Shown in pieces: positions 37,023 through 50,186 of a stretch of DNA of 64,000 nt. The notes below the pieces were generated by a model that was not told the DNA's origin, searched no databases, and saw nothing but the letters and a program-made list of their open reading frames with translations. The position numbers were made by a program, and so were the translations under genes. The stretch is from NCBI RefSeq assembly GCF_030128875.1, contig NZ_CP124620.1:682001-746000 (forward strand). Reading direction: 5' to 3'. The first letter of the stretch is position 1. Each line of letters starts with the position of its first letter. This DNA comes from Stenotrophomonas sp. BIO128-Bstrain (lineage in GTDB: Bacteria; Pseudomonadota; Gammaproteobacteria; Xanthomonadales; Xanthomonadaceae).

Positions 37023-38621
37023 ATGGAGACCGTCCGCCTGCTGGATCTGCACATCGACCGCCCTGCCCAGCAGGTGCGGCGAGGGGATCAGGTATTGCCG
37101 GTCGGCGGGCTGAGTTGGCGGCTGCTGGACTGCCTGCTGGCCCACGGCAACGCCGTCGTCGATTTCGACACGCTCGCCGATCAGGTCTGGGCACCGGCGG
37201 TGGTCGGCGAGGATGCGATCAGCCAGCGGGTGAAGCTGCTCCGGCAGGCGCTGGGCGATGACGGCCGCCGGCCGCGCTACATCCGCTCGGTTCGTGGCCG
37301 TGGCTACCAGTTGTGCGCCTCGCCGCAGCCGGTGATGCGTGATGCCGTTGCCAGCGCCAGCACGGAGGGCGCTCCCGTCGCACCCGGCGCGCGCGCACCC
37401 GCACGGTGGGTCTGGCTGGCTGGGGTAACGGTCGCCGCTGCTGCCGTCGTGTTCGCCTTGGTACGTCCCGCCAGCGCACCGGCGTCGCCAGCGGAGGCGG
37501 TGCTGCAGCGCGCCGCCTATTACGCGGGTATCGGCCAGGCCAGCAACAACGAACGGGCGATCGCGTTGTACCGCCAGGCGCTGCAGATCGACCCTGAATC
37601 GCTTATCGCACGGCGTGGACTCGCCCGAGCGCTGGCGGCCGATGCCTGCTTGTTCAACGGCGCGCGCGAGCGTGCGCAGGAGGCGCTGGTGTTGAGCAGC
37701 CAGCTGGTGCTCAAGGCGCCGGAAGATGCCGCCGGCTGGGCCGCACGCGGCTATGCCCACGACTGCCTCGGTGCGATGTCGCACGCCATGGCGGACTACC
37801 GGCAGGCACTGCGGCGCGACGCGGGTGACGAGCGCACGCGCGCATCGCTGGCCTATCTGCAGCAGGAAAAAGGCGACCTCGCGCAGGCCCTGCAGGACAA
37901 CCTGTCGCTGCGCGCGCCCGAGCGGGTTCGGTTCCGCGACGTACAGGTCGCACGCGAACTGGAGCTGTTGGGGTTCACCGATGCGGCCGCTCGCCGGCAC
38001 GCGCACAACTTCCAGCTCTATCCGGACAATGTGTTCGCCAACATCGCCTGGCCGCACAGCCTGTTGGCAATGGGGGAGTCGGCCAAAGCACAGCAGGCGC
38101 TGGATCAGGCACTGGCTCGCGGGACGCCACATCCGCAGTTGCTGCGCCTGCAGGGCGAGATGCTGTTGTTGAGCGGGAATCGGAAGGGCGCCGCCGAAGC
38201 CTTCGAGCAGAGCCGGGCATTGCGCCCGCAGCAGTCGATGGGGCAGACCCTGGCCGGCCTCTATGGCGATCCGGCGCCTGCCCCGACCTGGATCGCCGAG
38301 CGCCTGCAGATGCTGGAAGGGCAAGGCGATGATGGCTGGTCCGACACCGCGCTGGAGCGTGCGATGTTGCTGCAGGCCCAGGGCGATGAGGCCGCTGCGC
38401 TGGTGGCCCTGCATCACGCGGTGAACGCCGGCTTCCGCGATGCGGCGTGGTTGCGCGCCACCCCTTTGTTTGCGCCGCTGCACGGTGCGGCCGGCTGGCA
38501 GGAACTGCTCGACACGATCGAGACAGACGTATCCGCCCAGCGCGCCCGGGTGTTGGCCGCCCCATGGCGGCCAACAGACCTCGATGGCCTCAGCGCAGCG
38601 CGGGCAGCAGGAACTCGGTAA
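37023..38621 (+). CDS. CadC/ToxR-type transmembrane regulator with TPR domain
   Basis: A 532-aa protein. Residues 1-95 form an OmpR/PhoB-type winged-helix DNA-binding domain (VDFDTLADQVWAP, DAISQRVKLLRQALGDD, RYIRSVRGRGYQL). A Pro/Ala linker and a single transmembrane helix (WVWLAGVTVAAAAVVFAL, about 130-148) follow, then a periplasmic tetratricopeptide-like region to the end. This layout is that of CadC-like one-component sensors. It lies 50 bases after the chitinase gene. The start at 37023 (METVRLLDLH) is chosen over 37011, which overlaps a possible -10 box. The last 32 bases overlap the convergent serine hydrolase gene. Confidence 0.87.
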   Translation: METVRLLDLHIDRPAQQVRRGDQVLPVGGLSWRLLDCLLAHGNAVVDFDTLADQVWAPAVVGEDAISQRVKLLRQALGDDGRRPRYIRSVRGRGYQLCASPQPVMRDAVASASTEGAPVAPGARAPARWVWLAGVTVAAAAVVFALVRPASAPASPAEAVLQRAAYYAGIGQASNNERAIALYRQALQIDPESLIARRGLARALAADACLFNGARERAQEALVLSSQLVLKAPEDAAGWAARGYAHDCLGAMSHAMADYRQALRRDAGDERTRASLAYLQQEKGDLAQALQDNLSLRAPERVRFRDVQVARELELLGFTDAAARRHAHNFQLYPDNVFANIAWPHSLLAMGESAKAQQALDQALARGTPHPQLLRLQGEMLLLSGNRKGAAEAFEQSRALRPQQSMGQTLAGLYGDPAPAPTWIAERLQMLEGQGDDGWSDTALERAMLLQAQGDEAAALVALHHAVNAGFRDAAWLRATPLFAPLHGAAGWQELLDTIETDVSAQRARVLAAPWRPTDLDGLSAARAAGTR

Positions 38622-39669
38622 GGATGCGGCGCGACTGCGGGTGGGCGTAGCTGCGGTTGTAGGCCTGGCTGGTGATCACCGCGACCAGCTTCTTGCCGGG
38701 TATCACGAACACGTAGTTGCCGCCGTTGCCGGACATGGTCCAGATCGTGGTTTCGTGCCCATCGACCGGAAGCTTCAGCCCCCACCACTGATAGCCGTAG
38801 TCGCTGCCATCACCGGTGGTGGCCTGGGCGCTGACCATCGCGCGGACATAGCGCGCCGGGATCAGCTGCTTGCCCTGCCAGCGCCCCTCGGCGAGCACCA
38901 GCTCGCCCAGCCGCGCGAGGTCCCGGCTACGGTAGCGCGTCCCGCCGCCGCCCATGCCGATGCCTTCCGGGGAGCGGTTCCATCTGCTCGTCGTGATCCC
39001 CAGCGGTCGTTCCAGCGCCTGCGCGGCGTAGTCGGCCAAGGGCTGCTTCGTGGCCTGTTCCAGCACCGCGCCGAGCACGAAGGAATTGGCCGTGCAGTAG
39101 GCATGCGCGCGACCGTGCGGGCTGTCTTCCGGGCGCGTCATCCACGGTGCGAAGCCCTTGACCGGCAGCGACAGCACGAAGTCCAGCCAGTGCTCGGTCA
39201 CGTACATGCGTTCCTCGTGGCCGGCCGAGAACGCGTTTTCGTCATCACATTCCCACAGCGTGCTCATGGTGAGCAGGTCTTCCACGGTGGTGGCGCGCAG
39301 TCGCGGGTCGACCGGATGGTGGGCCGTGAACGCCGGGAAGTAGTCGTACACGCGGGCCTGCACGCCGGGCAGGGAGCCGTCGCCGATGGCGGCGCCGACC
39401 AGCATCGCGGTGACACTCTTGCTGGCCGAGCGCACGTCGTTGAGGGTGTCCGCCGAGCCGCCGTTGAAGTAGCCCTCGTACGCCACCTGGCCGTCCACCA
39501 GCAACACGATGCTGGTGACTTGCTTGATGTCCTGGGTGGCGATCGCCGACTCCAGCGCGGTGATCCGGGCTGCGTCCAACTGGGTGGGCCCGGCCAGTGC
39601 GGTCGGTGGCAGGACAACCGCCAGGGCGAAGATCAGCGCGGCGGAAAAACGGGGGCGACAGGGGTGCAT
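38590..39669 (-). CDS. Serine hydrolase of the beta-lactamase (class C / DD-peptidase) fold
   Basis: A 359-aa protein with a signal peptide (RFSAALIFALAVVLPP then TALA). The nucleophile motif SxxK is SASK near residue 83; a Tyr motif AYCTANS lies near 196, standing for the family YxN; a GNGG segment near residue 320 replaces the KTG box. Such proteins include class C-like esterases, D-aminopeptidases and 6-aminohexanoate hydrolases, and most are not true beta-lactamases. ATG 39669 has GAGGAG eight bases upstream; the in-frame TTG at 39675 is less likely. Monocistronic; convergent with the CadC-like gene. Confidence 0.86.
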   Translation of the reverse strand: MHPCRPRFSAALIFALAVVLPPTALAGPTQLDAARITALESAIATQDIKQVTSIVLLVDGQVAYEGYFNGGSADTLNDVRSASKSVTAMLVGAAIGDGSLPGVQARVYDYFPAFTAHHPVDPRLRATTVEDLLTMSTLWECDDENAFSAGHEERMYVTEHWLDFVLSLPVKGFAPWMTRPEDSPHGRAHAYCTANSFVLGAVLEQATKQPLADYAAQALERPLGITTSRWNRSPEGIGMGGGGTRYRSRDLARLGELVLAEGRWQGKQLIPARYVRAMVSAQATTGDGSDYGYQWWGLKLPVDGHETTIWTMSGNGGNYVFVIPGKKLVAVITSQAYNRSYAHPQSRRILTEFLLPALR

Positions 39670-39777
39670 GGGCAAGGCTCCTCGAGATGAGGGCCGACTA
39701 CGCCATGGGGCGGTCTGAAGTGCTGGAAACCCGGCTGAAGAATTCTGAAGGCCCGCCGCAGCAAGCCTTCGAGGCGA

Positions 39778-41343
39778 TCAGCGTGGTGCACTCCAGACGC
39801 TGTTCGGATCACCATGCCGTGCCCGGCGCAGGCTCGCACGCGCCAGGGTGGCAAAACCAAAGGCCAGTGCCAGCGCCACCGCGTCCACCCAGAACAGCGG
39901 CCAGTAGCCCCGTGCCGCGCTCGCCCACGGCCAGAAGCCGGTCAGGGCGCCATGCATTACCGCTACCAGCGCGGTGCTGATCGCGGCCGCCCACAGCAGC
40001 TCACGGGCCGCCTGGTCGGGGCGACGCAGCGCCGCCCACAGGGCGCAGACGCCCCAGGTGACGAAACAGATCCAGCGGATGCCGTGGTCCACCGCCTGCG
40101 GCGCGACCTGCTCCAGGATCTGTGCGCCGACGAAGCTGGCCGAGATCGCCACGCACAACCCGATGCATACCCCCACGGTCGCGCGGGCCATGTTGATCTG
40201 CGCGCGACCTTGTTCGACCTGGCGTCGCTTGCGCCGCGATTCGATCCACAGCAGGTTGCCGGAGTAGAACAGGAAGGCGCCGCCCAGGCCGAGCAGGAAG
40301 TACAGCCACACCACTACGCCATTGCCGAATTCACCGAAATGCAGCGCATAGGCGGCACTCAGGGTGGCGTGGTTGGCATCGCGTTGGCCAGGCAACTGGC
40401 TGCTCAGCAGGCGGCCGCTGGCCGCATCCAGGCCGACCGCGCCGAGCGGCCCCAGGGTGCCGCCGGATTCGCCGGTGATCTCGATCGTGGCGTTGGCATC
40501 GCCGGCATGGGCGAGCTTGAGGAAGGCCGGCTCGAAATCAGCCACGCCCTGCGCCCGGGCCACCTCGATGGCGCGGGCATGCAGCATGCGCAGGTTGGTT
40601 TCATCGCCTGGCTGGCCGCTGGGCTCGCGTATCGGCGCGGTGTCCATCGCTGCCGGCACCGCCTGCAGCAACTTGCCGTCGAAGATCAGCGGATTGAGCG
40701 CCGCCATCTGCAGGAAGATCAGGCAGAGCAGTGCGCCGGTCACCGCGAACATCAGGTGGAAGGGCAGGCTGAGTACGCCGATCACGTTGTGCGCGTCCTG
40801 CCACATCTGCTTGAGGTTGCGGCCCGGGCGCAGCGCGAACAGATCGCCCAGCAGTCTGGGCAGGTGGATGACCAGCCCGCTGAGCAGGGCCACGCCATAC
40901 AGCAGGCTGACGATGCCCATCAGGTAGGTGCCCGCGACCGGCAGGCCGAGGCTGTAATGCAGCTCGTTGACCAGCTCCGCCAGCCCGGTCTGCGGGGGCG
41001 TGACACTGCCGTCGTAATGGTCCAGCCACGCGTACAGCCAGGTGCCCTTGGCATCCTGCCAATACGCGATCGGCTGCGGGTGATCGCCACCGGGGAAGGT
41101 CATGCCGACGTGGGCACGCGCGGCCAGGTGGCGTTCGAGCACGCCATCGAGCAGGCGTTGCGCGTCGTCCAGGCTCGCGGCCGGCGTGTCCACCGCATGC
41201 GGGGTCTGCCACAGCGGCAGATCGTGGTGGAACAGGGTCAGCGCGCCGGCGTAGAACGCGACGAACAGCGCGAAGCCGGCGACCAGGCCGACCCACGTGT
41301 GCACGGTGGTGAAGGTACGCAGGGTCTGGGAACTGAACTTCAT
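39778..41343 (-). CDS. PepSY-associated transmembrane protein, PiuB type
   Basis: A 521-aa inner-membrane protein with an N-terminal helix preceded by TFTTVHTWVGLVAG, further helices near 145-165, 195-215 and 340-360, and a C-terminal helical bundle. PepSY-like soluble segments lie between the first helices (HPQPIAYWQDAKGTWLY) and near 270-320. This is the PiuB/PepSY_TM family, induced under iron starvation and often next to TonB-dependent siderophore receptors. It is the last gene of a three-gene operon with DUF3325 and DUF3649 proteins. The candidate Fur box upstream supports iron regulation. Confidence 0.88.
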   Translation of the reverse strand: MKFSSQTLRTFTTVHTWVGLVAGFALFVAFYAGALTLFHHDLPLWQTPHAVDTPAASLDDAQRLLDGVLERHLAARAHVGMTFPGGDHPQPIAYWQDAKGTWLYAWLDHYDGSVTPPQTGLAELVNELHYSLGLPVAGTYLMGIVSLLYGVALLSGLVIHLPRLLGDLFALRPGRNLKQMWQDAHNVIGVLSLPFHLMFAVTGALLCLIFLQMAALNPLIFDGKLLQAVPAAMDTAPIREPSGQPGDETNLRMLHARAIEVARAQGVADFEPAFLKLAHAGDANATIEITGESGGTLGPLGAVGLDAASGRLLSSQLPGQRDANHATLSAAYALHFGEFGNGVVVWLYFLLGLGGAFLFYSGNLLWIESRRKRRQVEQGRAQINMARATVGVCIGLCVAISASFVGAQILEQVAPQAVDHGIRWICFVTWGVCALWAALRRPDQAARELLWAAAISTALVAVMHGALTGFWPWASAARGYWPLFWVDAVALALAFGFATLARASLRRARHGDPNSVWSAPR

Positions 41344-41353
41344 CGCATCGCTC

Positions 41354-41617
41354 TCATTGCACCGCGCCGGTCAGGCGCAGCAGCCACAGCAGGCCGAACC
41401 CGGCCACGGCGGTGGCACTCATCACGGCCCACGCCCGCAGCCCGGTGCGGAAGCTGAAGGCCCAGATCGCAGCCAGCATCCACAGCGGGATGAACGCGAT
41501 CAGGCTGGGTACCAGCGCGTTCTGCCACGGCCCCGGCGGCAGCCAGGCGATCAGCCCGGTCGCCGCGGCGGCCACGAAGAACCCCGCCAGGACGCCGGCG
41601 CCGGCCCGTGCCCACAT
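41354..41617 (-). CDS. Small membrane protein, DUF3649-like
   Basis: An 87-aa protein with about three transmembrane segments (AGVLAGFFVAAAATGLIAWL, LIAFIPLWMLAAIWAF and the C-terminal VMSATAVAGFGLLWLL). Position between a DUF3325-like gene and a PiuB-type gene identifies it as the usual DUF3649 member of such operons. Its ATG at 41617 overlaps the preceding stop by one base. Molecular function is unknown; a role in iron or siderophore handling is inferred from context. Confidence 0.78.
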   Translation of the reverse strand: MWARAGAGVLAGFFVAAAATGLIAWLPPGPWQNALVPSLIAFIPLWMLAAIWAFSFRTGLRAWAVMSATAVAGFGLLWLLRLTGAVQ

Positions 41618-41913
41618 CAGCGTGTCACCTGCGCCGGCCGGTGCCAGGCGGCGAGCAGGGGCAGCGCGATCGCCACCAGCATCCAGCTGCACAGCATCAC
41701 CACCACGCCGGTGGCGATGCCCAGATTGGCGATCCACAGCCAGAGCGCCGCCACCGCGGCGATCAGGCTGATCTGCCGGCCCAGGCGGCCGGCCCGGCGC
41801 AGGCGCGGCCAGCGGCAGTGCGGCGAGGCGGCATACAGCGCCAGCGCCGAGAACGCCGAGCCGGCCAGCGCCAGGCTGCAGAAGCCAAGCGAGGTCAGGG
41901 CGACCGTGATCAT
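41617..41913 (-). CDS. Small membrane protein, DUF3325-like
   Basis: A 98-aa, mostly hydrophobic protein with three predicted helices (MITVALTSLGFCSLALAG, a middle helix at IAAVAALWLWIANLG, and IATGVVVMLCSWMLVAIALP). Start ATG 41913 is taken because the longer frame upstream is Pro/Arg-rich and not membrane-like. First gene of the piuB-type operon; the stop overlaps the next start (TGATG). DUF3325 assignment rests on size, topology and neighbours. Confidence 0.76.
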   Translation of the reverse strand: MITVALTSLGFCSLALAGSAFSALALYAASPHCRWPRLRRAGRLGRQISLIAAVAALWLWIANLGIATGVVVMLCSWMLVAIALPLLAAWHRPAQVTR

Positions 41914-41996
41914 CGGGTGGCCGCCAGCGCACGCGGCAGGGCGCGGCAGGCCGGGAAGGAAGCGGGGCAGGGCATGGGGGAATCCAATCGGCAACC

Positions 41997-42014
41997 CTGT
42001 CCTGGTCAGGACAG
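41997..42014. promoter_or_regulatory. 18-base palindrome upstream of the piuB-type operon
   Basis: CTGTCCTG-GT-CAGGACAG is a perfect inverted repeat about 85 bases before the first start codon. It could be a regulator site or an RNA hairpin in the leader. Confidence 0.45.
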
Positions 42015-42020
42015 TAACCC

Positions 42021-42042
42021 GCGCATGGTAATCATTGCCGTT
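42021..42042 (-). promoter_or_regulatory. Candidate Fur box
   Basis: ATGGTAATCATTGCC (42025-42039) is a near-palindrome (GGTAAT-C-ATTGCC, one mismatch) resembling the Fur consensus core. It stands upstream of a PepSY/PiuB operon, a typical Fur target. Confidence 0.6.
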
Positions 42043-42119
42043 TATGGGCGCCACACGTACACATTCAGGCGCCTGGGCGGGGGGGCACGCCGGCGCGCGG
42101 CGGCGCATTCATCGGCAGA

Positions 42120-42148
42120 TTGGTTTAAGATCAGGGCATCTCTATCGA
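42120..42148 (+). promoter_or_regulatory. Putative promoter for thrS
   Basis: TTGGTT (42120-42125), 17-base spacer, TATCGA (42143-42148). Predicted start near 42155 gives a leader of about 170 bases before thrS that contains the threonine leader peptide and terminator. Confidence 0.45.
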
Positions 42149-42191
42149 GGCAACAAGGTGGCCCGCGCCCTGCGCCGGTCTAGCGTGTGAC

Positions 42192-42218
42192 ATGAGCACT
42201 ACCACCGCCCACCGCTGA
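42192..42218 (+). CDS. Putative threonine leader peptide MSTTTAHR
   Basis: ATG AGC ACT ACC ACC GCC CAC CGC TGA encodes an eight-residue peptide with three consecutive threonine codons. It lies 24 bases before a terminator hairpin and about 105 bases before thrS, threonyl-tRNA synthetase. The combination is the classical design of ribosome-mediated attenuation, where scarce charged tRNA-Thr would stall the ribosome and favour read-through. A CCTGCG segment (42169-42174) can pair with CGCAGG (42239-42244), overlapping the terminator 5' arm, a possible alternative structure. No strong ribosome-binding site is seen. Confidence 0.6.
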   Translation: MSTTTAHR

Positions 42219-42241
42219 ACGCCCCCGACGGCCCCTGACGC

Positions 42242-42266
42242 AGGCGCCTTCGTGGCGCTTTTTTAT
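42242..42266 (+). terminator. Intrinsic terminator / attenuator in the thrS leader
   Basis: GCGCC-TTCGT-GGCGC (extended by A-T and G-T pairs) followed by TTTTTT. It is 57 bases before the thrS ATG and directly after the threonine leader peptide. Confidence 0.8.
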
Positions 42267-42322
42267 TGCCTCGCCCCCGGATTCTCCAGGCCCCCTGCGG
42301 GCCACCAGACCAAAGCACTCTC

Positions 42323-44227
42323 ATGATCGCGATCACGCTCCCCGACGGCAGCCGCCGTGAATTCGAACATCCCGTCAGTGTCATGGACGTCGCCCAGTCG
42401 ATCGGCGCCGGCCTAGCCAAGGCCACCATCGCCGGTTCGGTGGATGGCGTGCTGGTCGATGCCAGTGACGTCATCGACCACGATGCCAGCCTGCGCATCA
42501 TCACCGCCAAGGACGAGGAGGGCGTTGAGATCATCCGCCACTCCGCCGCCCATCTGGTTGGTCATGCGGTCAAGCAGCTGTACCCGGACGTCAAGATGGT
42601 GATCGGCCCGGTCATCGCCGAAGGCTTCTACTACGACATCTACTCCGAGCGTCCGTTCACGCCCGAGGACATGGCCGCCATCGAAAAGCGCATGGCTGAG
42701 CTGATCGCGCAGGACTACGACGTGATCAAGAAGGTTACCCCGCGTGCGGAGGTCATCGAGATCTTCAAGGCGCGTGGCGAAGACTACAAGCTGCGCCTGA
42801 TCGAAGACATGTCGCCGGAGATCCAGGCGATGGGCATGTACTACCACCAGGAATACGTGGACATGTGCCGCGGCCCGCACGTGCCCAACACGCGCTTCCT
42901 GAAGGCCTTCAAGCTGACCCGCATTTCCGGCGCCTATTGGCGCGGCGACGCGCAGAACGAGCAGCTGCAGCGCGTCTACGGCACCGCCTGGGCCGACAAG
43001 AAGCAGCTCGATGCGTACATCAAGCGCATCGAAGAGGCGGAGATGCGCGACCACCGTCGCATCGGCAAGCAGCAGGACCTGTTCCACCTGCAGGAAGAGG
43101 CCCCGGGCCTGGTGTTCTGGCACCCGAAGGGCTGGGCGCTGTGGCAGGTGGTCGAGCAGTACATGCGCAAGGTGTACCGCAATACCGGCTACGGCGAAGT
43201 GCGCTGCCCGCAGATCCTGGACGTGTCGCTGTGGCAGAAGTCCGGCCATTGGGACAACTACCAGGACGCGATGTTCTTCACCGAGTCGGAGAAGCGTACC
43301 TACGCGCTCAAGCCGATGAACTGCCCGGGCCACGTGCAGGTGTTCAACCAGGGGCTGCACAGCTACCGCGATCTGCCGATCCGCTACGGTGAGTTTGGTG
43401 CCTGCCACCGCAACGAGCCCTCCGGCGCGCTGCACGGCATCCTGCGCGTGCGTGGCTTTACCCAGGACGACGGCCACGTGTTCTGCACCGAAGACCAGGT
43501 CGAGGCGGAAGTGACCGCGTTCCACCAGCAGGCGCTGGCGGTGTACCAGCACTTCGGCTTCGAGGAGATCCAGGTCAAGATCGCGCTGCGCCCCGAATCG
43601 CGCCTGGGCGATGACAGCACGTGGGACAAGGCGGAGGGCGCATTGCGCTCGGCCCTGTCCAGCTGCGGGGTGGAATGGCAGGAGCTGCCGGGCGAGGGCG
43701 CCTTCTACGGCCCAAAGATCGAGTACCACCTCAAGGATGCCATCGGCCGTACCTGGCAGTTGGGCACGATGCAGGTCGACTTCATGATGCCTGGCCGCCT
43801 TGGCGCCGAGTATGTGGACGAAAACAGCCAGAAGAAGCATCCGGTCATGCTGCACCGCGCGATCGTCGGTTCCATGGAGCGTTTCCTGGGCATCCTGATC
43901 GAGCACCATGCCGGCCAGTTCCCGGCCTGGCTGGCCCCGACCCAGGTGGTGGTGGCCAATATCACCGACGCTCAGGCTGAATACGTCAGTGAAGTCAGGA
44001 AAACCCTTGCAGATCAAGGGTTCCGCGTGAACGCCGATTTGCGCAACGAGAAGATCGGATATAAGATTCGCGAGCATACGCTGCAGCGGGTCCCGTACCT
44101 GCTGGTGGTTGGCGACCGTGAGAAGGAAAATGGCGCCGTGGCCGTGCGTACGCGCTCTGGCGAAGATCTGGGCAGCATGTCCGTCCAGGCCTTCATCGAG
44201 CGGTTGCAGGCAGAACAGTCCGTGTAA
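42323..44227 (+). CDS. thrS: Threonine-tRNA ligase
   Basis: Class II aminoacyl-tRNA synthetase with editing. 634 aa: N-terminal TGS domain (1-62), editing domain with [16 protein letters not shown] (about 73-88) and the downstream [13 protein letters not shown], catalytic core (about 240-530) with zinc ligands in MNCPGHV and GHRNEPSG-type (here [12 protein letters not shown]) motif 2, and C-terminal anticodon-binding domain. ATG 42323 ([10 protein letters not shown]) is used; a TTG 57 bases upstream lies in the terminator T run and is rejected. First gene of thrS-infC-rpmI-rplT-pheST-ihfA, the enterobacterial order. Confidence 0.97.
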
Positions 44228-44290
44228 GAAAGTCCCGGCCCTGCGGATGCTCCGCGATGGGCCGGTTTGATTCCTCTGGGAGATTGCAAT

Positions 44291-44815
44291 ATCAGTACCC
44301 CTGACAACAAACAGAACCGCAAGAATCAGGAAATCCGGGTGCCGCGCGTCCGCGTGATCGGCAGCGACGGAGAAATGATTGGTGTGTTGACGCGTGACGA
44401 AGCGCTGTCGATGGCCGAAGACGAAGGTCTGGACCTGGTCGAGATTCAGCCGCAGGCTGATCCGCCGGTGTGCAAGATCATGGACTTCGGCAAGTTCAAG
44501 TTCGAAGCGCAGAAGAAGGCCAACGAGGCCAAGAAGAAGACCAAGCAGGTCGAGATCAAGGAAGTGAAGTTCCGCCCGGTCACCGATGAAGGTGATTACC
44601 AGATCAAGCTGCGCAAGATGCGCGGGTTCCTGGAAGAGGGCGACAAGATCAAGGTCAACATCCGCTTCCGTGGCCGTGAAATGAGCCATCAGGAACTGGG
44701 TCGCGAGATGGCCAGCCGGATCGAGGGTGATCTGGGCGAAGACATCGTGATCGAGTCCCGTCCGCGCCTTGAAGGCCGGCAGATGGTGATGATGATCGCG
44801 CCGAAGAAGAAGTAA
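44291..44815 (+). CDS. infC: Translation initiation factor IF-3, ATC start
   Basis: Prevents premature 50S joining and checks start codon-anticodon pairing. 174 aa: N-terminal domain (1-80), Lys-rich linker ([16 protein letters not shown]), and C-terminal domain with [26 protein letters not shown] split over about 95-120. No ATG, GTG or TTG lies at the family start. The frame is open from TTG 44267, but GGGAG sits about eight bases before ATC 44291 ([13 protein letters not shown]), which fits the family N terminus. E. coli infC uses the non-standard ATT for autoregulation by IF-3, so an ATC start here is plausible. Confidence 0.92.
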
Positions 44816-44848
44816 CCGGCCATCGGGCCTGGCCCGAACCGGCGGGAA

Positions 44849-44871
44849 GTAGAGCCGACCGTTGGTCGGCT
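44849..44871 (+). repeat. SMAG-type REP palindrome, copy A of a tandem pair
   Basis: GTAG followed by AGCCGACC-GTT-GGTCGGCT. It shares a 22-base core with copy B (44893-44915) and with the element at 25138. It is in the infC-rpmI gap. Confidence 0.8.
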
Positions 44872-44892
44872 GGACAGCCCACCGCGGCAAAG

Positions 44893-44915
44893 GTAGAGCC
44901 GACCGTTGGTCGGCT
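44893..44915 (+). repeat. SMAG-type REP palindrome, copy B of a tandem pair
   Basis: Same core as copy A, 44 bases downstream in the same orientation. No gene is supported in 44916-45069; the rpmI promoter follows. Confidence 0.8.
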
Positions 44916-45069
44916 GCCCAGCCCCGGCCGCACTTCTCCGTGCACCACGCAGCGGGCGCCCATCGGCGCCTTCTGTCGTTTCCCGCGCGCGGCCTGGCGT
45001 CACGCCGGGCTCGCGCCCGTTCCGTTCAGGTTCGGCCGCGCCGCGGTAAACACCCGCCCAATCAAGCGT

Positions 45070-45098
45070 TTGCAACTGTCCGTATACACGGGCATAAT
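45070..45098 (+). promoter_or_regulatory. Promoter for rpmI-rplT
   Basis: TTGCAA (45070-45075), 17-base spacer, CATAAT (45093-45098). It gives a leader of about 190 bases before rpmI. Confidence 0.72.
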
Positions 45099-45104
45099 GG
45101 GCGG

Positions 45105-45291
45105 CCCCGTTTTGCGGGGGTGCTGTTTTGAACGGTTTCCCGCCCCACAAAGGCACGCTGTTCCAACGGCAAACAGGACCGGCCTGGTTCCCATCGGGGA
45201 TCCCGGGCTTACAAGCAGGCAAGGGCACGGACGGAAAGTGTGGCAATGCCACCGCCCTGGTCAGTGACAAAACATCATCAAGGACATAGCA
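45105..45291 (+). other. Structured leader of rpmI-rplT, possible L20 autoregulatory region
   Basis: The leader holds CCCCG-TTTTG-CGGGG (45105-45119) followed shortly by TGTTTTG, and GTGGC-AAT-GCCAC (45240-45252), among other GC hairpins. In E. coli L20 represses rpmI-rplT through a structured leader. I infer a similar role from position and length; no specific L20 site was identified. Confidence 0.4.
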
Positions 45292-45489
45292 ATGCCCAAG
45301 ATCAAGACCAACCGGGCGGCGGCCAAGCGTTTCCGCAAGACCGCCTCCGGCAAGTTCAAGGCTGGCCACGCCAACCGCAGCCACATCCTCACGAAGAAGT
45401 CGACCAAGCGGAAGCGCAATCTGCGTCAGACGAACCATGTTCGTGCAGAAGACGCAGGCCGTTTGAACCGTATGCTTCCCTACCTCTGA
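45292..45489 (+). CDS. rpmI: 50S ribosomal protein L35
   Basis: 65-aa basic protein of the large subunit. Conserved [19 protein letters not shown] and the C-terminal RLNRMLPYL are visible. ATG 45292 is preceded by AAGGA about eight bases upstream. Ten bases separate it from rplT. Confidence 0.98.
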
Positions 45490-45499
45490 GGACTGACCC

Positions 45500-45859
45500 A
45501 TGGCACGAGTAAAGCGTGGCGTACAGGCGCGTCGCCGCCACAAGAAAATTCTGACCCTGGCGAAGGGTTACTACAACGCTCGCCGCAAGGTCTTCCGCGT
45601 TGCCAAGCAGGCCGTGATCAAGGCACAGCAGTACGCCTACATCGGCCGTAAGCAGAAGAAGCGCAATTTCCGTTCGCTGTGGATCACCCGCATCAACGCG
45701 GCTGCCCGCATCAACGGCCTGAGCTACAGCCGTTTCATGAACGGCCTGCTCAAGTCCGGCATCACCCTGGACCGTAAGGTTCTGGCTGACATCGCCGTGC
45801 ACGACGCAGCTGGTTTTGCTGCACTGGCCGAAAAGGCCAAGGGCGCACTGGCGGCATAA
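45500..45859 (+). CDS. rplT: 50S ribosomal protein L20
   Basis: 119-aa 23S rRNA-binding assembly protein. A long basic N-terminal extension ([20 protein letters not shown]) and the motif [20 protein letters not shown] are present. Ribosome-binding site GAGGA precedes ATG 45500. It is cotranscribed with rpmI and also the likely autoregulator of that unit. Confidence 0.98.
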
Positions 45860-45871
45860 GTCCATTCCCCT

Positions 45872-47051
<1,180 letters not shown>

Positions 47052-47055
47052 CAGC

Positions 47056-47083
47056 GTAACCGCCGGGCAGCCCCCGGCGCTAC
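47056..47083 (-). repeat. SMAG-like REP palindrome in the pheS-pheT gap
   Basis: On the minus strand it reads GTAG then CGCCGGG-GGCTG-CCCGGCG and ends in GTTAC. It fits the GTAG-headed REP pattern with a looser match than the copies at 25138 and 44849. Confidence 0.5.
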
Positions 47084-47141
47084 GTCGCACCACCATTCAT
47101 CACGGCCCAGGCGCCTGCGCCGGGCCCACCAGGGTGACACC

Positions 47142-49523
47142 ATGAAATTCTCTGAAAACTGGCTGCGCAGCCACGTCCCGACCACCGTCTCGCGCGATGA
47201 ACTCAGCGCGGTGCTGACCGCGATCGGTCTGGAAGTGGAAGAGGTCGATGCGCTGGGCGATGGCCTGCAGCATGTGGTCGTGGCGAAGATCATTTCCGCC
47301 GAACGCCATCCCGAAGCCGACCGCCTGCAGATCTGCCAGGTCGATGCGGGGCAGGGCGAGCACCTGCAGATCGTATGCGGTGCGCCGAACGCGCGCCCGG
47401 GCCTGGTCGCACCGCTGGCAATGGTGGGCGCCCAGATCGGTGATCTGAAGATCAAGCCGGCCAAGCTGCGTGGCGTGGAATCCAACGGCATGCTGTGCTC
47501 GGCCAAGGAGCTGGGCCTGGACACCGATGCGTCCGGCCTGTTCGAACTGCCCGACGATGCGCCCGTCGGCCAGACCCTGGTCGAGTACCTCGGCCTGCCC
47601 GACGCCAGCATCGAGATCAAGCTGACCCCGAACCGCGCCGACTGCTTCAGCATCCGCGGCATCGCCTTCGACGTGGCCGCTGCGTGCGCCAGTGAAGTGG
47701 TGCCGTTCGACGCTGCGCCGGTGGCCGCCGTGGGCACGCGTGAACTGTCCATCCAGCTGGACGCTGGCGCCGAAGCACCGCGTTACGTTGGTCGCGTGAT
47801 CGAGGGCGTCAACGCCCGTGCCGCGACCCCGCTGTGGATGGCCGAGCGCCTGCGCCGCAGTGGGGTGCGCCCGGTGTCGCTGCTGGTGGACGTCACCCAG
47901 TACGTGATGCTCGAGCTCGGCCAGCCGATGCATGCCTTCGATCTGGGCACCCTGCAGGGCAGCATCGGCGTGCGTCGTTCGCGTGCGGGTGAGACCCTGA
48001 AGCTGCTCGATGGTCGCGACGCCGCGCTGGACGACAGCTTCCTGCTGGTCACCGATGCCGACCGCCCGATCGCGCTGGCCGGCCTGATGGGCGGCTTCGA
48101 TACGCGCGTCACCGACGACACCACCAACGTGTTCCTGGAGGCCGCGCACTTCGCGCCCGCCGCGATCATGGGCCGTGGCCGCAAGCTGGGCCTGCACACC
48201 GATGCCGGCCACCGCTTCGAGCGCGGTGTCGACCCGGTGCTGCCGCGCGCGGCGATCGAGTACGCCACCCGCCTGATTTTGGACCTGGCCGGCGGCACCC
48301 CCGCGCCGGTCACCGAGGCCGTGCGCGACGCCGACCTGCCGGCGACCGCCACCATCGGCCTGCGCCGCGCCCGTATCGCGCGCGTGCTGGGCATCCAGAT
48401 CGCCGATGCCGATGTGGAGCGCATCCTGCGCGCGCTGGGCATGGACGTGGCCCCGACCGCTGATGGCTGGCAGGTCACCGCGCCGAGCCGCCGTTTCGAT
48501 ATCGCCATCGAAGAAGACTTGATCGAAGAGCTGGCCCGTATCCACGGGTACGAGCAGATTCCGACCACGCTGCCGGGCGGTGCCTCGCGCATCGCCATGC
48601 CGACCGAGACCCGCCTGGACGACCTGAGCGTGCGCCGCCAGCTGGTGGCCCGTGACCTGCAGGAAACCATCAATTACGCCTTCGTCGATGCCGCGCTGCT
48701 CGCGCAGTGGCAGCTGAGCGAGGGTCTGGTCGCGCTGGCCAATCCGCTGTCGGCCGAACTGGCGGTGATGCGCCCGTCGCTGCTGCCGGGCCTGGTCGCC
48801 ACCCTGGGCCGCAACGCCGCCCGCCAGCTGGGCCGCGTGCGCCTGTTCGAACTGGGGCGCGTGTTCCACCAGCAGGCTGGCGAGGGCCAGCCCGCGCCGC
48901 TGGAAACCCAGCGCGTGGCTGCCGCGATCTGTGGCGATGCCGACACCCAGCAATGGGGCCTGCCGACCCGCAAGGTCGACTTCCATGACCTCAAGGGCGA
49001 CCTGGAATCGCTGGCTGGTGCCAGCGGCGCCGAGCTCGAGTTCAGGCCCTCGCAGCGTCCGTACGGCCACCCGGCACGCTCGGCCGAGGTCTACCGTGAC
49101 GGCGTGAGCCTGGGCTGGATCGGCCAGATCCATCCGCGGCTGGCCAAGGCCATGGATATCGACGTGGACGTGGTCGCCTTCGAGCTGGACCTGGCCCCGC
49201 TGGCCGCCCGCGCCCTGCCGCGCGCCACCGACCTGTCGCGCTTCCCGTCGATGCGCCGCGATCTGGCCTTCCTGGTGCCCGAGGCCGCCGCCTGGGCCGA
49301 CCTGGAAGCGACCCTGCGCCGGGCTGCCGGCCCGCTGCTGCGCGAGGTCACGCTGTTCGACCGGTACGTCGGCCAGGGGGTCGAGCCGGGCTTCAAGAGT
49401 CTCGCTATGGGCTTGATTTTGCAGGACAAGTCGCGCACTCTGACGGACCGCGACGTGGATGCGGTGGTGGCCGAGGCGGTCTCTGCCATGGAGCGTGAAC
49501 ATCACGCCCGGATCCGCGGTTGA
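47142..49523 (+). CDS. pheT: Phenylalanine-tRNA ligase beta subunit
   Basis: 793 aa, full length. Order: EMAP/Trbp111-like tRNA-binding domain (about 39-148), B3/B4 editing domain (to about 395, with RGRKLGLHTDAGHRFERGVDP), B5 domain, catalytic-like core without active site, and the C-terminal ferredoxin-fold anticodon-binding domain (from about 700, DLSRFPSMRRDLAFLV). AGGGTGA lies upstream of ATG 47142. The 26 bases to ihfA suggest cotranscription. Confidence 0.97.
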   Translation: MKFSENWLRSHVPTTVSRDELSAVLTAIGLEVEEVDALGDGLQHVVVAKIISAERHPEADRLQICQVDAGQGEHLQIVCGAPNARPGLVAPLAMVGAQIGDLKIKPAKLRGVESNGMLCSAKELGLDTDASGLFELPDDAPVGQTLVEYLGLPDASIEIKLTPNRADCFSIRGIAFDVAAACASEVVPFDAAPVAAVGTRELSIQLDAGAEAPRYVGRVIEGVNARAATPLWMAERLRRSGVRPVSLLVDVTQYVMLELGQPMHAFDLGTLQGSIGVRRSRAGETLKLLDGRDAALDDSFLLVTDADRPIALAGLMGGFDTRVTDDTTNVFLEAAHFAPAAIMGRGRKLGLHTDAGHRFERGVDPVLPRAAIEYATRLILDLAGGTPAPVTEAVRDADLPATATIGLRRARIARVLGIQIADADVERILRALGMDVAPTADGWQVTAPSRRFDIAIEEDLIEELARIHGYEQIPTTLPGGASRIAMPTETRLDDLSVRRQLVARDLQETINYAFVDAALLAQWQLSEGLVALANPLSAELAVMRPSLLPGLVATLGRNAARQLGRVRLFELGRVFHQQAGEGQPAPLETQRVAAAICGDADTQQWGLPTRKVDFHDLKGDLESLAGASGAELEFRPSQRPYGHPARSAEVYRDGVSLGWIGQIHPRLAKAMDIDVDVVAFELDLAPLAARALPRATDLSRFPSMRRDLAFLVPEAAAWADLEATLRRAAGPLLREVTLFDRYVGQGVEPGFKSLAMGLILQDKSRTLTDRDVDAVVAEAVSAMEREHHARIRG

Positions 49524-49549
49524 GCGGGAAGCATGGGGGATAGCAGGCA

Positions 49550-49849
49550 ATGGCATTGACCAAGGCGGAGATGGCCGAGAAGCTGTTCGACGAAGTCGGT
49601 CTGAACAAGCGCGAAGCCAAGGAATTTGTCGACGCGTTCTTCGATGTGCTGCGTGAAGCATTGGAACAGGGACGTCAGGTGAAGCTGTCCGGCTTCGGGA
49701 ATTTCGACCTGCGGCGCAAGAACCAGCGCCCGGGTCGCAACCCCAAGACCGGTGAGGAAATTCCGATTTCCGCCCGTACGGTGGTCACCTTCCGTCCGGG
49801 CCAGAAGCTCAAGGAAAGGGTAGAGGCATATGCTGGATCCGGGCAGTAA
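49550..49849 (+). CDS. ihfA: Integration host factor subunit alpha
   Basis: 99-aa nucleoid protein that bends DNA as a heterodimer with IhfB. The beta-arm has the intercalating proline segment [14 protein letters not shown], and the body shows [21 protein letters not shown] and KLSGFGNF. It follows pheT as in enterobacteria and overlaps the next gene by 20 bases. Confidence 0.97.
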
Positions 49850-50186
49850 CCGAGAACTTCCGCCGATACCGGCCAAGCGCTACTTCACCATCGGTGAGGT
49901 CAGCGAACTGTGCGACGTCAAGCCGCACGTGCTGCGCTACTGGGAAACCGAATTCCCCAGCCTGGAGCCGGCCAAGCGCCGCGGCAACCGCCGCTACTAC
50001 CAGCGCCACGACGTGCTGATGGTCCGCCAGATCCGCGGCCTGCTCTACGAGCAGGGCTACACCATCGGCGGTGCGCGCCTGCGCCTGGAAGGTGCCGATG
50101 CGCGCGAGGAATCGGCGCTGAGCAACCAGATCATCAAGCAGACGCGGATGGAACTGGAAGAAGTGCTTCAATTGCTGCGCCGCTGA
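49830..50186 (+). CDS. MerR-family transcriptional regulator
   Basis: 118 aa. N-terminal MerR winged helix: [28 protein letters not shown] in two parts (about 18-45), then [20 protein letters not shown] short helical dimerisation region follows, with no cysteine metal site and no effector domain. This small MerR-like gene overlapping ihfA is a recurrent neighbour in proteobacteria; its targets are unknown to me. The 20-base overlap indicates coupled translation. Confidence 0.92.

Follow-up and report, generated by a model that had tools for sequence, protein, structure and literature searches.

In Escherichia coli, the leader peptide thrL carries threonine codons and is followed by an intrinsic terminator and the biosynthesis genes thrABC, and leader-peptide attenuation likewise governs an aminoacyl-tRNA synthetase gene in the pheM-pheST system. 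The thrS gene of the same organism is the textbook example of a synthetase that controls its own translation via tRNA mimicry, by means of an operator situated at the thrS start. In phage T4 gene 25, finally, the ribosome-binding site is split, and a hairpin joins the Shine-Dalgarno sequence and the start codon.

The leader described here precedes thrS in a 64,000-nt stretch of DNA from Stenotrophomonas sp. BIO128-Bstrain, hereafter the window. It resembles thrL-thrABC in that a Thr-codon leader peptide is followed by an intrinsic terminator and then by the gene under presumed control, and differs from it in that the target is thrS rather than a set of biosynthesis genes, the upstream open reading frame (uORF) has eight codons where the E. 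coli peptide is longer, and a hairpin module lies upstream. With pheM-pheST, in which we know of no module of the type Shine-Dalgarno, hairpin and AUG, it shares a synthetase gene as the candidate target of leader-peptide attenuation, the amino acid being a different one. The E. coli thrS operator serves the same gene and the same need, but acts on translation through protein binding at the thrS start and without a uORF, and its pattern is found in only 1 of 234 leaders of the kind analyzed here. The likeness to T4 gene 25 lies in a candidate hairpin between Shine-Dalgarno sequence and start codon; unlike the phage gene, the frame concerned here would be a regulatory uORF, and the arrangement would overlap an attenuator pairing partner.

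A Thr-containing leader peptide directly before thrS, described as threonine-dependent, has been reported for Streptomyces lividans (thrL); in the part of that report consulted it has 18 residues with two Thr, is said to be leaderless, and its termination is said to be unclear (PMC8079986). The window leader is thus similar in that a Thr leader peptide adjoins thrS, and dissimilar in peptide length, in the number of Thr residues and in its hairpin module, no such module being described in that part of the S. lividans report; the principle of a Thr leader before thrS is therefore already in print, for another phylum (PMC8079986). Among the matches listed in the open PMC literature, as far as their excerpts go, we found no Thr leader before thrS in the order to which the window belongs: the excerpt of one mentions E. 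coli threonyl-tRNA synthetase and not thrS (PMC2965389), and those of two others have no bearing on the matter (PMC4833913, PMC2330054).

The thrS locus and its relatives

The features of the locus are collected in Table 1. The positions that the first-pass annotation had given for the Thr frame and the terminator, and the identity of thrS behind them, were all confirmed, and the uORF recurs, together with a block of conserved sequence upstream of it, in 234 distinct leaders. In the window the uORF reads ATG AGC ACT ACC ACC GCC CAC CGC TGA. The first 271 residues of ThrS are 99% identical to the product in a record titled Stenotrophomonas bentonitica, and the nearest named relatives of the locus are titled Stenotrophomonas. 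A strict promoter scan makes no call at the -10-like hexamer, near whose place TTTAAGAT, TTTACCAT or CTAGAAT is found in relatives, among the matches listed. A T-box reading was prompted by AAGGTGGCCCGCG, which we take to resemble a T-box sequence, and was rejected, for Rfam families give no match in window positions 38000-50000 at E <= 1.

Table 1. Features of the thrS leader region, in window coordinates
Feature	Position	Strand	Basis
-10-like hexamer TAAGAT, presumed leader promoter	42126..42131	+	seen in sequence; promoter role inferred
AAGGTGG, Shine-Dalgarno-like, 5' of hairpin P1 (region 1)	42155..42161	+	GGTG at this place 5' of P1 in 232/234 distinct leaders
Hairpin P1: GGCC / C.C mismatch / GCGC, loop, GCGC / GGTC	42160..42180	+	fold; covariation in relatives
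TAGCGTGTGAC, 11-nt spacer from P1 to uORF, consensus nAGnGTGYGAC	42181..42191	+	conserved in relatives
uORF MSTTTAHR*, Thr codons at positions 3, 4 and 5	42192..42218	+	sequence and conservation
Alternative hairpin GGC-CCUG-ACG-CAGG-GCC, candidate antiterminator, overlapping the 5' arm of the terminator	42230..42248	+	fold
Intrinsic terminator AGGCGCC-TTCGT-GGCGCTT and T-run	42242..42266	+	terminator scan; stem 42242-42260, T-run to 42266
thrS, threonyl-tRNA synthetase, 634 aa	42323..44227	+	reading frame and similarity

A frame of the MSTTTAHR type is present in all 80 thrS loci that were fetched, beginning MSTT in 77 and MSTI in 3. For genome searches we used a covariance model of the upstream block that was built from close relatives, and very divergent leaders are therefore under-sampled. 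At E <= 0.1 the model finds the block in 227 of the 247 genomes from f1, the window's own family, and in 47 of 54 genera; at E <= 0.001 in 150 of the 197 genomes from f12, another family that is probably Rhodanobacteraceae; and at E <= 0.05 in 74 of 200 genomes from the order at large, some of the weak matches in this last set being due to chance. Examination of 257 loci, with leaders retained only where thrS follows, left 254 leaders before thrS and 234 distinct ones, namely 131 of f1 (a group that includes a lone f3 locus, L155, and the titled thrS loci) and 103 of f12; the counts below refer to distinct leader sequences, among which related genomes are still represented. Four matches that do not precede thrS were excluded as chance matches (L153 and L154, both coding loci of one kind, as well as L171 and L172), and three loci in which the block is present are absent from the counts because the pattern for the thrS start missed them (L124, L128, L131). 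One retrieved record, L015, is titled Bacillus subtilis and has a thrS that resembles those of Stenotrophomonas (96% identity across 271 residues); mislabelling or contamination of the assembly is the probable reason.

A direct search for thrS in 30 genomes that the model does not match was successful in 28 of them; the resulting set of 27 loci (L263-L289) omits L290, on a truncated contig, and L291, a second paralog. The latter (genome G414) encodes an additional threonyl-tRNA synthetase with about 50% identity to that of the window, and no Thr uORF is listed before it. Inspected by eye, the 17 usable no-match loci of the two main families comprise 10 with a uORF of at least two Thr codons, 5 with a single-Thr uORF (L270-L273, L281) and 2 in which no Thr uORF was seen (L274, L279).

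Conserved Thr codons, upstream block, P1 covariation and terminator enrichment

Codon 3 of the uORF encodes Thr in 234 of the 234 distinct leaders, codon 4 in 205 and codon 5 in 112, so that the three successive Thr codons highlighted by the first-pass annotation do not hold as a conserved feature; in the aligned leaders the conserved element is the Thr pair at codons 3-4. The peptide has eight residues in 202 leaders, which is very small for a sensor of this sort. Codon 2 and the peptide end vary between the families: the f1 peptide is otherwise fairly constant (Ser2 in 117, Ala6 in 111 and His7 in 92 of 131), and that of f12 is different and more varied (Ala2 in 47 and Phe6 in 54 of 103). 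Among f12 leaders, codon 5 is Thr in 15 of the 23 that have another residue at codon 4, and in 11 of the 80 that have Thr there (Fisher p 3e-6, without correction for relatedness). Codon 3 is specifically ACT in 220 of 234 leaders, the 14 exceptions all belonging to f12 and each having CGA as codon 4, and ACT is used for only 2 of the 83 Thr codons in five reading frames of the window (two of them read in part). These codon counts indicate that the uORF codons are retained as Thr, and ACT seems to be kept at the nucleotide level as well. A comparison of relatives had been proposed along with the original assignment, and its outcome agrees with it: Thr codons and terminator are kept, and the peptide ends differ between families.

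The most conserved part of the leader, nevertheless overlooked in that first reading, lies 5' of the uORF and consists of AGGUGG, a covarying hairpin (P1) and AGNGUGYGAC before the AUG; this block is conserved beyond what a classical attenuator needs. Within it, 254 of the 257 loci show AGNGTGYGACATG free of substitutions, one of them with an extra base, and the remaining 3 carry it too, the loci having been picked with a model that contains that same sequence. The fold of P1 in the window is worth -11.8 kcal/mol, with a z of only -0.62 against shuffles. Across relatives, 39 distinct arm pairs are 89.4% paired, as opposed to 81.7% after shuffling (0 of 500 shuffles as high), and double-changed cells number 18 against 5.9, a value that none of 500 shuffles reaches; pairs changed on both sides, 5 against 3.7, do not differ significantly (106 of 500 as high), and the column shuffles behind these comparisons leave relatedness in. 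A three-helix fold derived from close relatives (P1 with GUGY/RCAC and GGU/ACC) fails as a whole in the wider alignment, since, by eye, codon 2 changes in f12 break helix 2 and codon 4 often breaks helix 3; P1, tested alone after this rejection, holds.

A terminator-like site 3' of the uORF is present in 217 of the 234 leaders. In f1 it is found in 114 of 131, compared with 23-37 in ten shuffled sets, and in f12 in 103 of 103, compared with 19-33. The 39-nt terminator stretch of the window, taken alone, folds no better than its shuffles (z -0.74; 42 of 200 as stable). Sixteen Xanthomonas loci (L067-L082) were noted to keep block and uORF, many of them without an intrinsic terminator that stands out clearly: in 8 the scan detects none, and in 6 of the remaining 8 its scores are low. 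The sensor may have a different output in such Xanthomonas leaders. The scan is also negative in, for example, L100, L126, L156 and L161, which keep uORF and block.

As to the alternative pairings, the segments CCTGCG (42169-42174) and CGCAGG (42239-42244), which the first-pass annotation had proposed to pair with each other in overlap with the 5' arm of the terminator, are indeed present in the window; both parts occur together in just 6 of 234 leaders (5 of 131 in f1, 1 of 103 in f12), which rules the pair out as a conserved device. The alternative hairpin of Table 1 is fairly stable in the window (-9.7 kcal/mol, z -2.06, 7 of 200 shuffles as stable), but a statistically supported antiterminator did not emerge from either of two tests across relatives, in which the native combination was equalled or bettered by 982 and 926 of 1000 arm swaps and the mean z against shuffles was -0.03 and 0.15, the arm hardly varying. 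Pairing between region 1 and the segment that follows the uORF is moderately supported: the native mean is -11.02 against -10.00 kcal/mol in 66 f12 representatives (0 of 2000 permutations as low) and -9.68 against -9.05 kcal/mol in 61 f1 representatives (9 of 2000 as low), relatedness having been removed only in part from these permutations. The native pairing beats both swap means in just 32 of 66 and 30 of 61 representatives, respectively; a register-locked version of the test with 52 distinct f12 leaders gives a modest 0.593 against 0.548 (54 of 5000 as high), and in L003, a near-identical relative of the window, the pairing is weak (-8.2 kcal/mol).

Probable attenuation of thrS and competing readings

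We consider it probable that the leader controls thrS by ribosome-mediated attenuation of transcription, the signal sensed being the charging of tRNA-Thr. A Thr leader peptide in control of thrS, as the first-pass annotation had it, finds strong support at the level of sequence, in the conservation of Thr codons 3 and 4 and in the terminators; of that first reading, the Thr codons and the terminator stood, and the proposed pairing and the run of three Thr did not. Thr codons, terminators and the average region 1 pairing make the classical logic, with a putative middle step, likely. Two observations speak against it: outside the Thr codons the f1 peptide, too, is fairly constant, and the upstream block is kept more strictly than attenuation of the classical kind demands. 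According to the mechanism we propose, the leader RNA would take up ribosomes, probably via AGGUGG brought near the AUG of the eight-codon uORF by P1. With ample Thr-tRNA the uORF would be finished fast, the post-uORF segment would re-pair with region 1 (AAGGUGG), and the terminator would stop transcription; with Thr-tRNA in short supply, the ribosome would stall at codons 3-4 against P1 and block the region 1 pairing, the downstream RNA would fold such that the terminator fails, and thrS would be transcribed. Within this scheme we infer that the ribosome stalls, that an antiterminator forms, that the ribosome-binding site is split and that the leader responds to threonine.

How ribosomes would be loaded onto the uORF deserves separate consideration. 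In 229 of the 234 leaders the 14 nt before the uORF AUG contain neither AGG nor GGA, and AGGUGG can pair with the 16S tail at -7.4 and -10.4 kcal/mol in two variants. In one genome of genus g39 (L268) P1 is missing, and what is left is GGAAGAGGTG-ACGAC-ATG with uORF and terminator, GAGGTG lying 5 nt from the ATG; two other loci of the same genus (L128, L131) have GGAAGAGGTGG-P1-GAGCGTGCGACATG. A locus of family f11 (L282) has GAGGTGGCACATG, likewise without P1. Our preferred reading, which we infer with caution, takes AGGUGG as the putative Shine-Dalgarno sequence of the uORF and P1 as the bridging hairpin, and the arrangement of Shine-Dalgarno-like element, hairpin and AUG, together with the natural loss of the hairpin, makes a split-site role within an attenuator testable. 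A weak GAG at normal distance from most AUGs counts against a split site: 189 of the 234 leaders have it at -11 to -9, the window having TAG instead, and one GAG-bearing spacer pairs with the 16S tail at -5.8 kcal/mol, the TAG spacer of the window at -3.6.

Other accounts of the same leader can be given. The uORF might act on translation, on mRNA stability or on Rho-dependent termination instead of through the intrinsic terminator, as would suit those leaders, half of the 16 Xanthomonas loci and others such as the four named above, that keep uORF and block where the scan calls no terminator; set against the terminator-like sites in 217 of 234 leaders, and against those seen by eye after all 8 uORFs of a second leader type (see below), we regard such an action as rather unlikely. 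It is improbable, too, that threonyl-tRNA synthetase binds the block and represses, with the uORF as an incidental feature. The NGU of Thr anticodons would be matched by AG-N-GU-GYGAC, in which GU is kept and the preceding base is C, T, A or G, as in the operator-like sites of 14 of 28 other genomes of the class, and the high conservation 5' of the AUG would be accounted for; yet the uORF starts 94-260 nt 5' of thrS in 152 distinct leaders, and the block is therefore not at the thrS start codon, no hairpin with an NGU loop is conserved (the stem of close relatives is, by eye, not kept in f12), and Thr at codon 3 of every leader would go unexplained.

That the element is a small RNA gene with its own terminator, thrS merely lying downstream, is scarcely credible. 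The -10-like hexamer, structured body and terminator, in the absence of an Rfam match, would fit such a gene, but the four model matches outside thrS (L153, L154, L171 and L172, the four examined among the weak matches) lack the ACATG-ACTAC core, the Thr codons are conserved, and in some lineages the uORF stays where the terminator is unclear. The attenuator reading could, conversely, be extended to a two-step sensor, in which a bridged split site would load the uORF, the Shine-Dalgarno sequence would double as protector, and NGUGYGAC, a remnant of an ancestral operator, would dock threonyl-tRNA synthetase, with charging and free enzyme together setting thrS transcription and at least two unrelated hairpin types doing the same job; we offer this extension as a speculation that is unlikely to be correct in full.

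Other leader types, genomes outside the order and genes 3' of thrS

Of the 27 thrS loci that the model does not match, 11 have a second block type, CGTAGTYC-loop-GRACACGATCACC-ATG-ACG-CG, which follows a GA-rich stretch (GGAG or GAGAG, for instance); the 11 are distributed over families f1, f2, f3 and f12. Its peptides begin MTRT (5), MTRN (3), MTRV (2) or MTRI (1), and in consequence of these starts 4 of the 11 loci have a single Thr. Among 200 genomes of the order, 8 have the pattern, in each case before thrS, and 3 of these loci repeat loci of the L263-L289 set; 7 of the 8 have at least two Thr codons and one has a single Thr (MTRAERQH), and a terminator-like site follows the uORF in all 8 by eye. 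Thr uORFs in other lineages are preceded by a second hairpin type. We also note that CGTA...GATCACCATG of the second type (L263-L267, L269-L273, L278) has letters in common with the E. coli-like thrS operator CGTATGGATCACCACTG; it looks as though the start of the second-type uORF had arisen inside an old operator.

Three loci of families f7 and f8 (L283, L286, L288) have the uORFs MIIATRTFTG, MNIWTRTTV and MKTTTKN, whose starts lie 6-7 nt after a -10-like hexamer; these Thr uORFs look leaderless, with translation presumably beginning at or near the transcription start. No Thr uORF was found before thrS in several loci of other families of the order (L284, L285, L287, L289).

Outside the order, the best 30 of 105 genomes of the class with thrS were fetched, 28 of them being outside the order proper. 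By eye, none of these 28 loci has a Thr uORF followed by a terminator, and in 14 of them an operator pattern like that of E. coli lies no more than 75 nt from thrS, as opposed to none of the 27 loci L263-L289 and 1 of the 234 leaders (L150) inside the order. The first-pass suggestion of a solution other than the E. coli-type operator is supported by this distribution: thrS appears to be controlled in another way in members of one bacterial order, and the two solutions can therefore be compared across an evolutionary boundary.

Downstream of thrS the window contains frames for infC, rplT, pheS, pheT and an ihfA-like gene, the names being given by reading of the frames. Between rplT and pheS lies a terminator-like hairpin, GGGGAAGG...CCTTCCCC with a T-run (45917-45950), near which no Phe-rich uORF was seen by eye; it is a possible second attenuator in the thrS gene cluster. 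The infC frame has no ATG at its apparent N-terminus, and its likely start is an ATC after GGGAG (44291-44293), which we liken to the unusual infC start known in E. coli.
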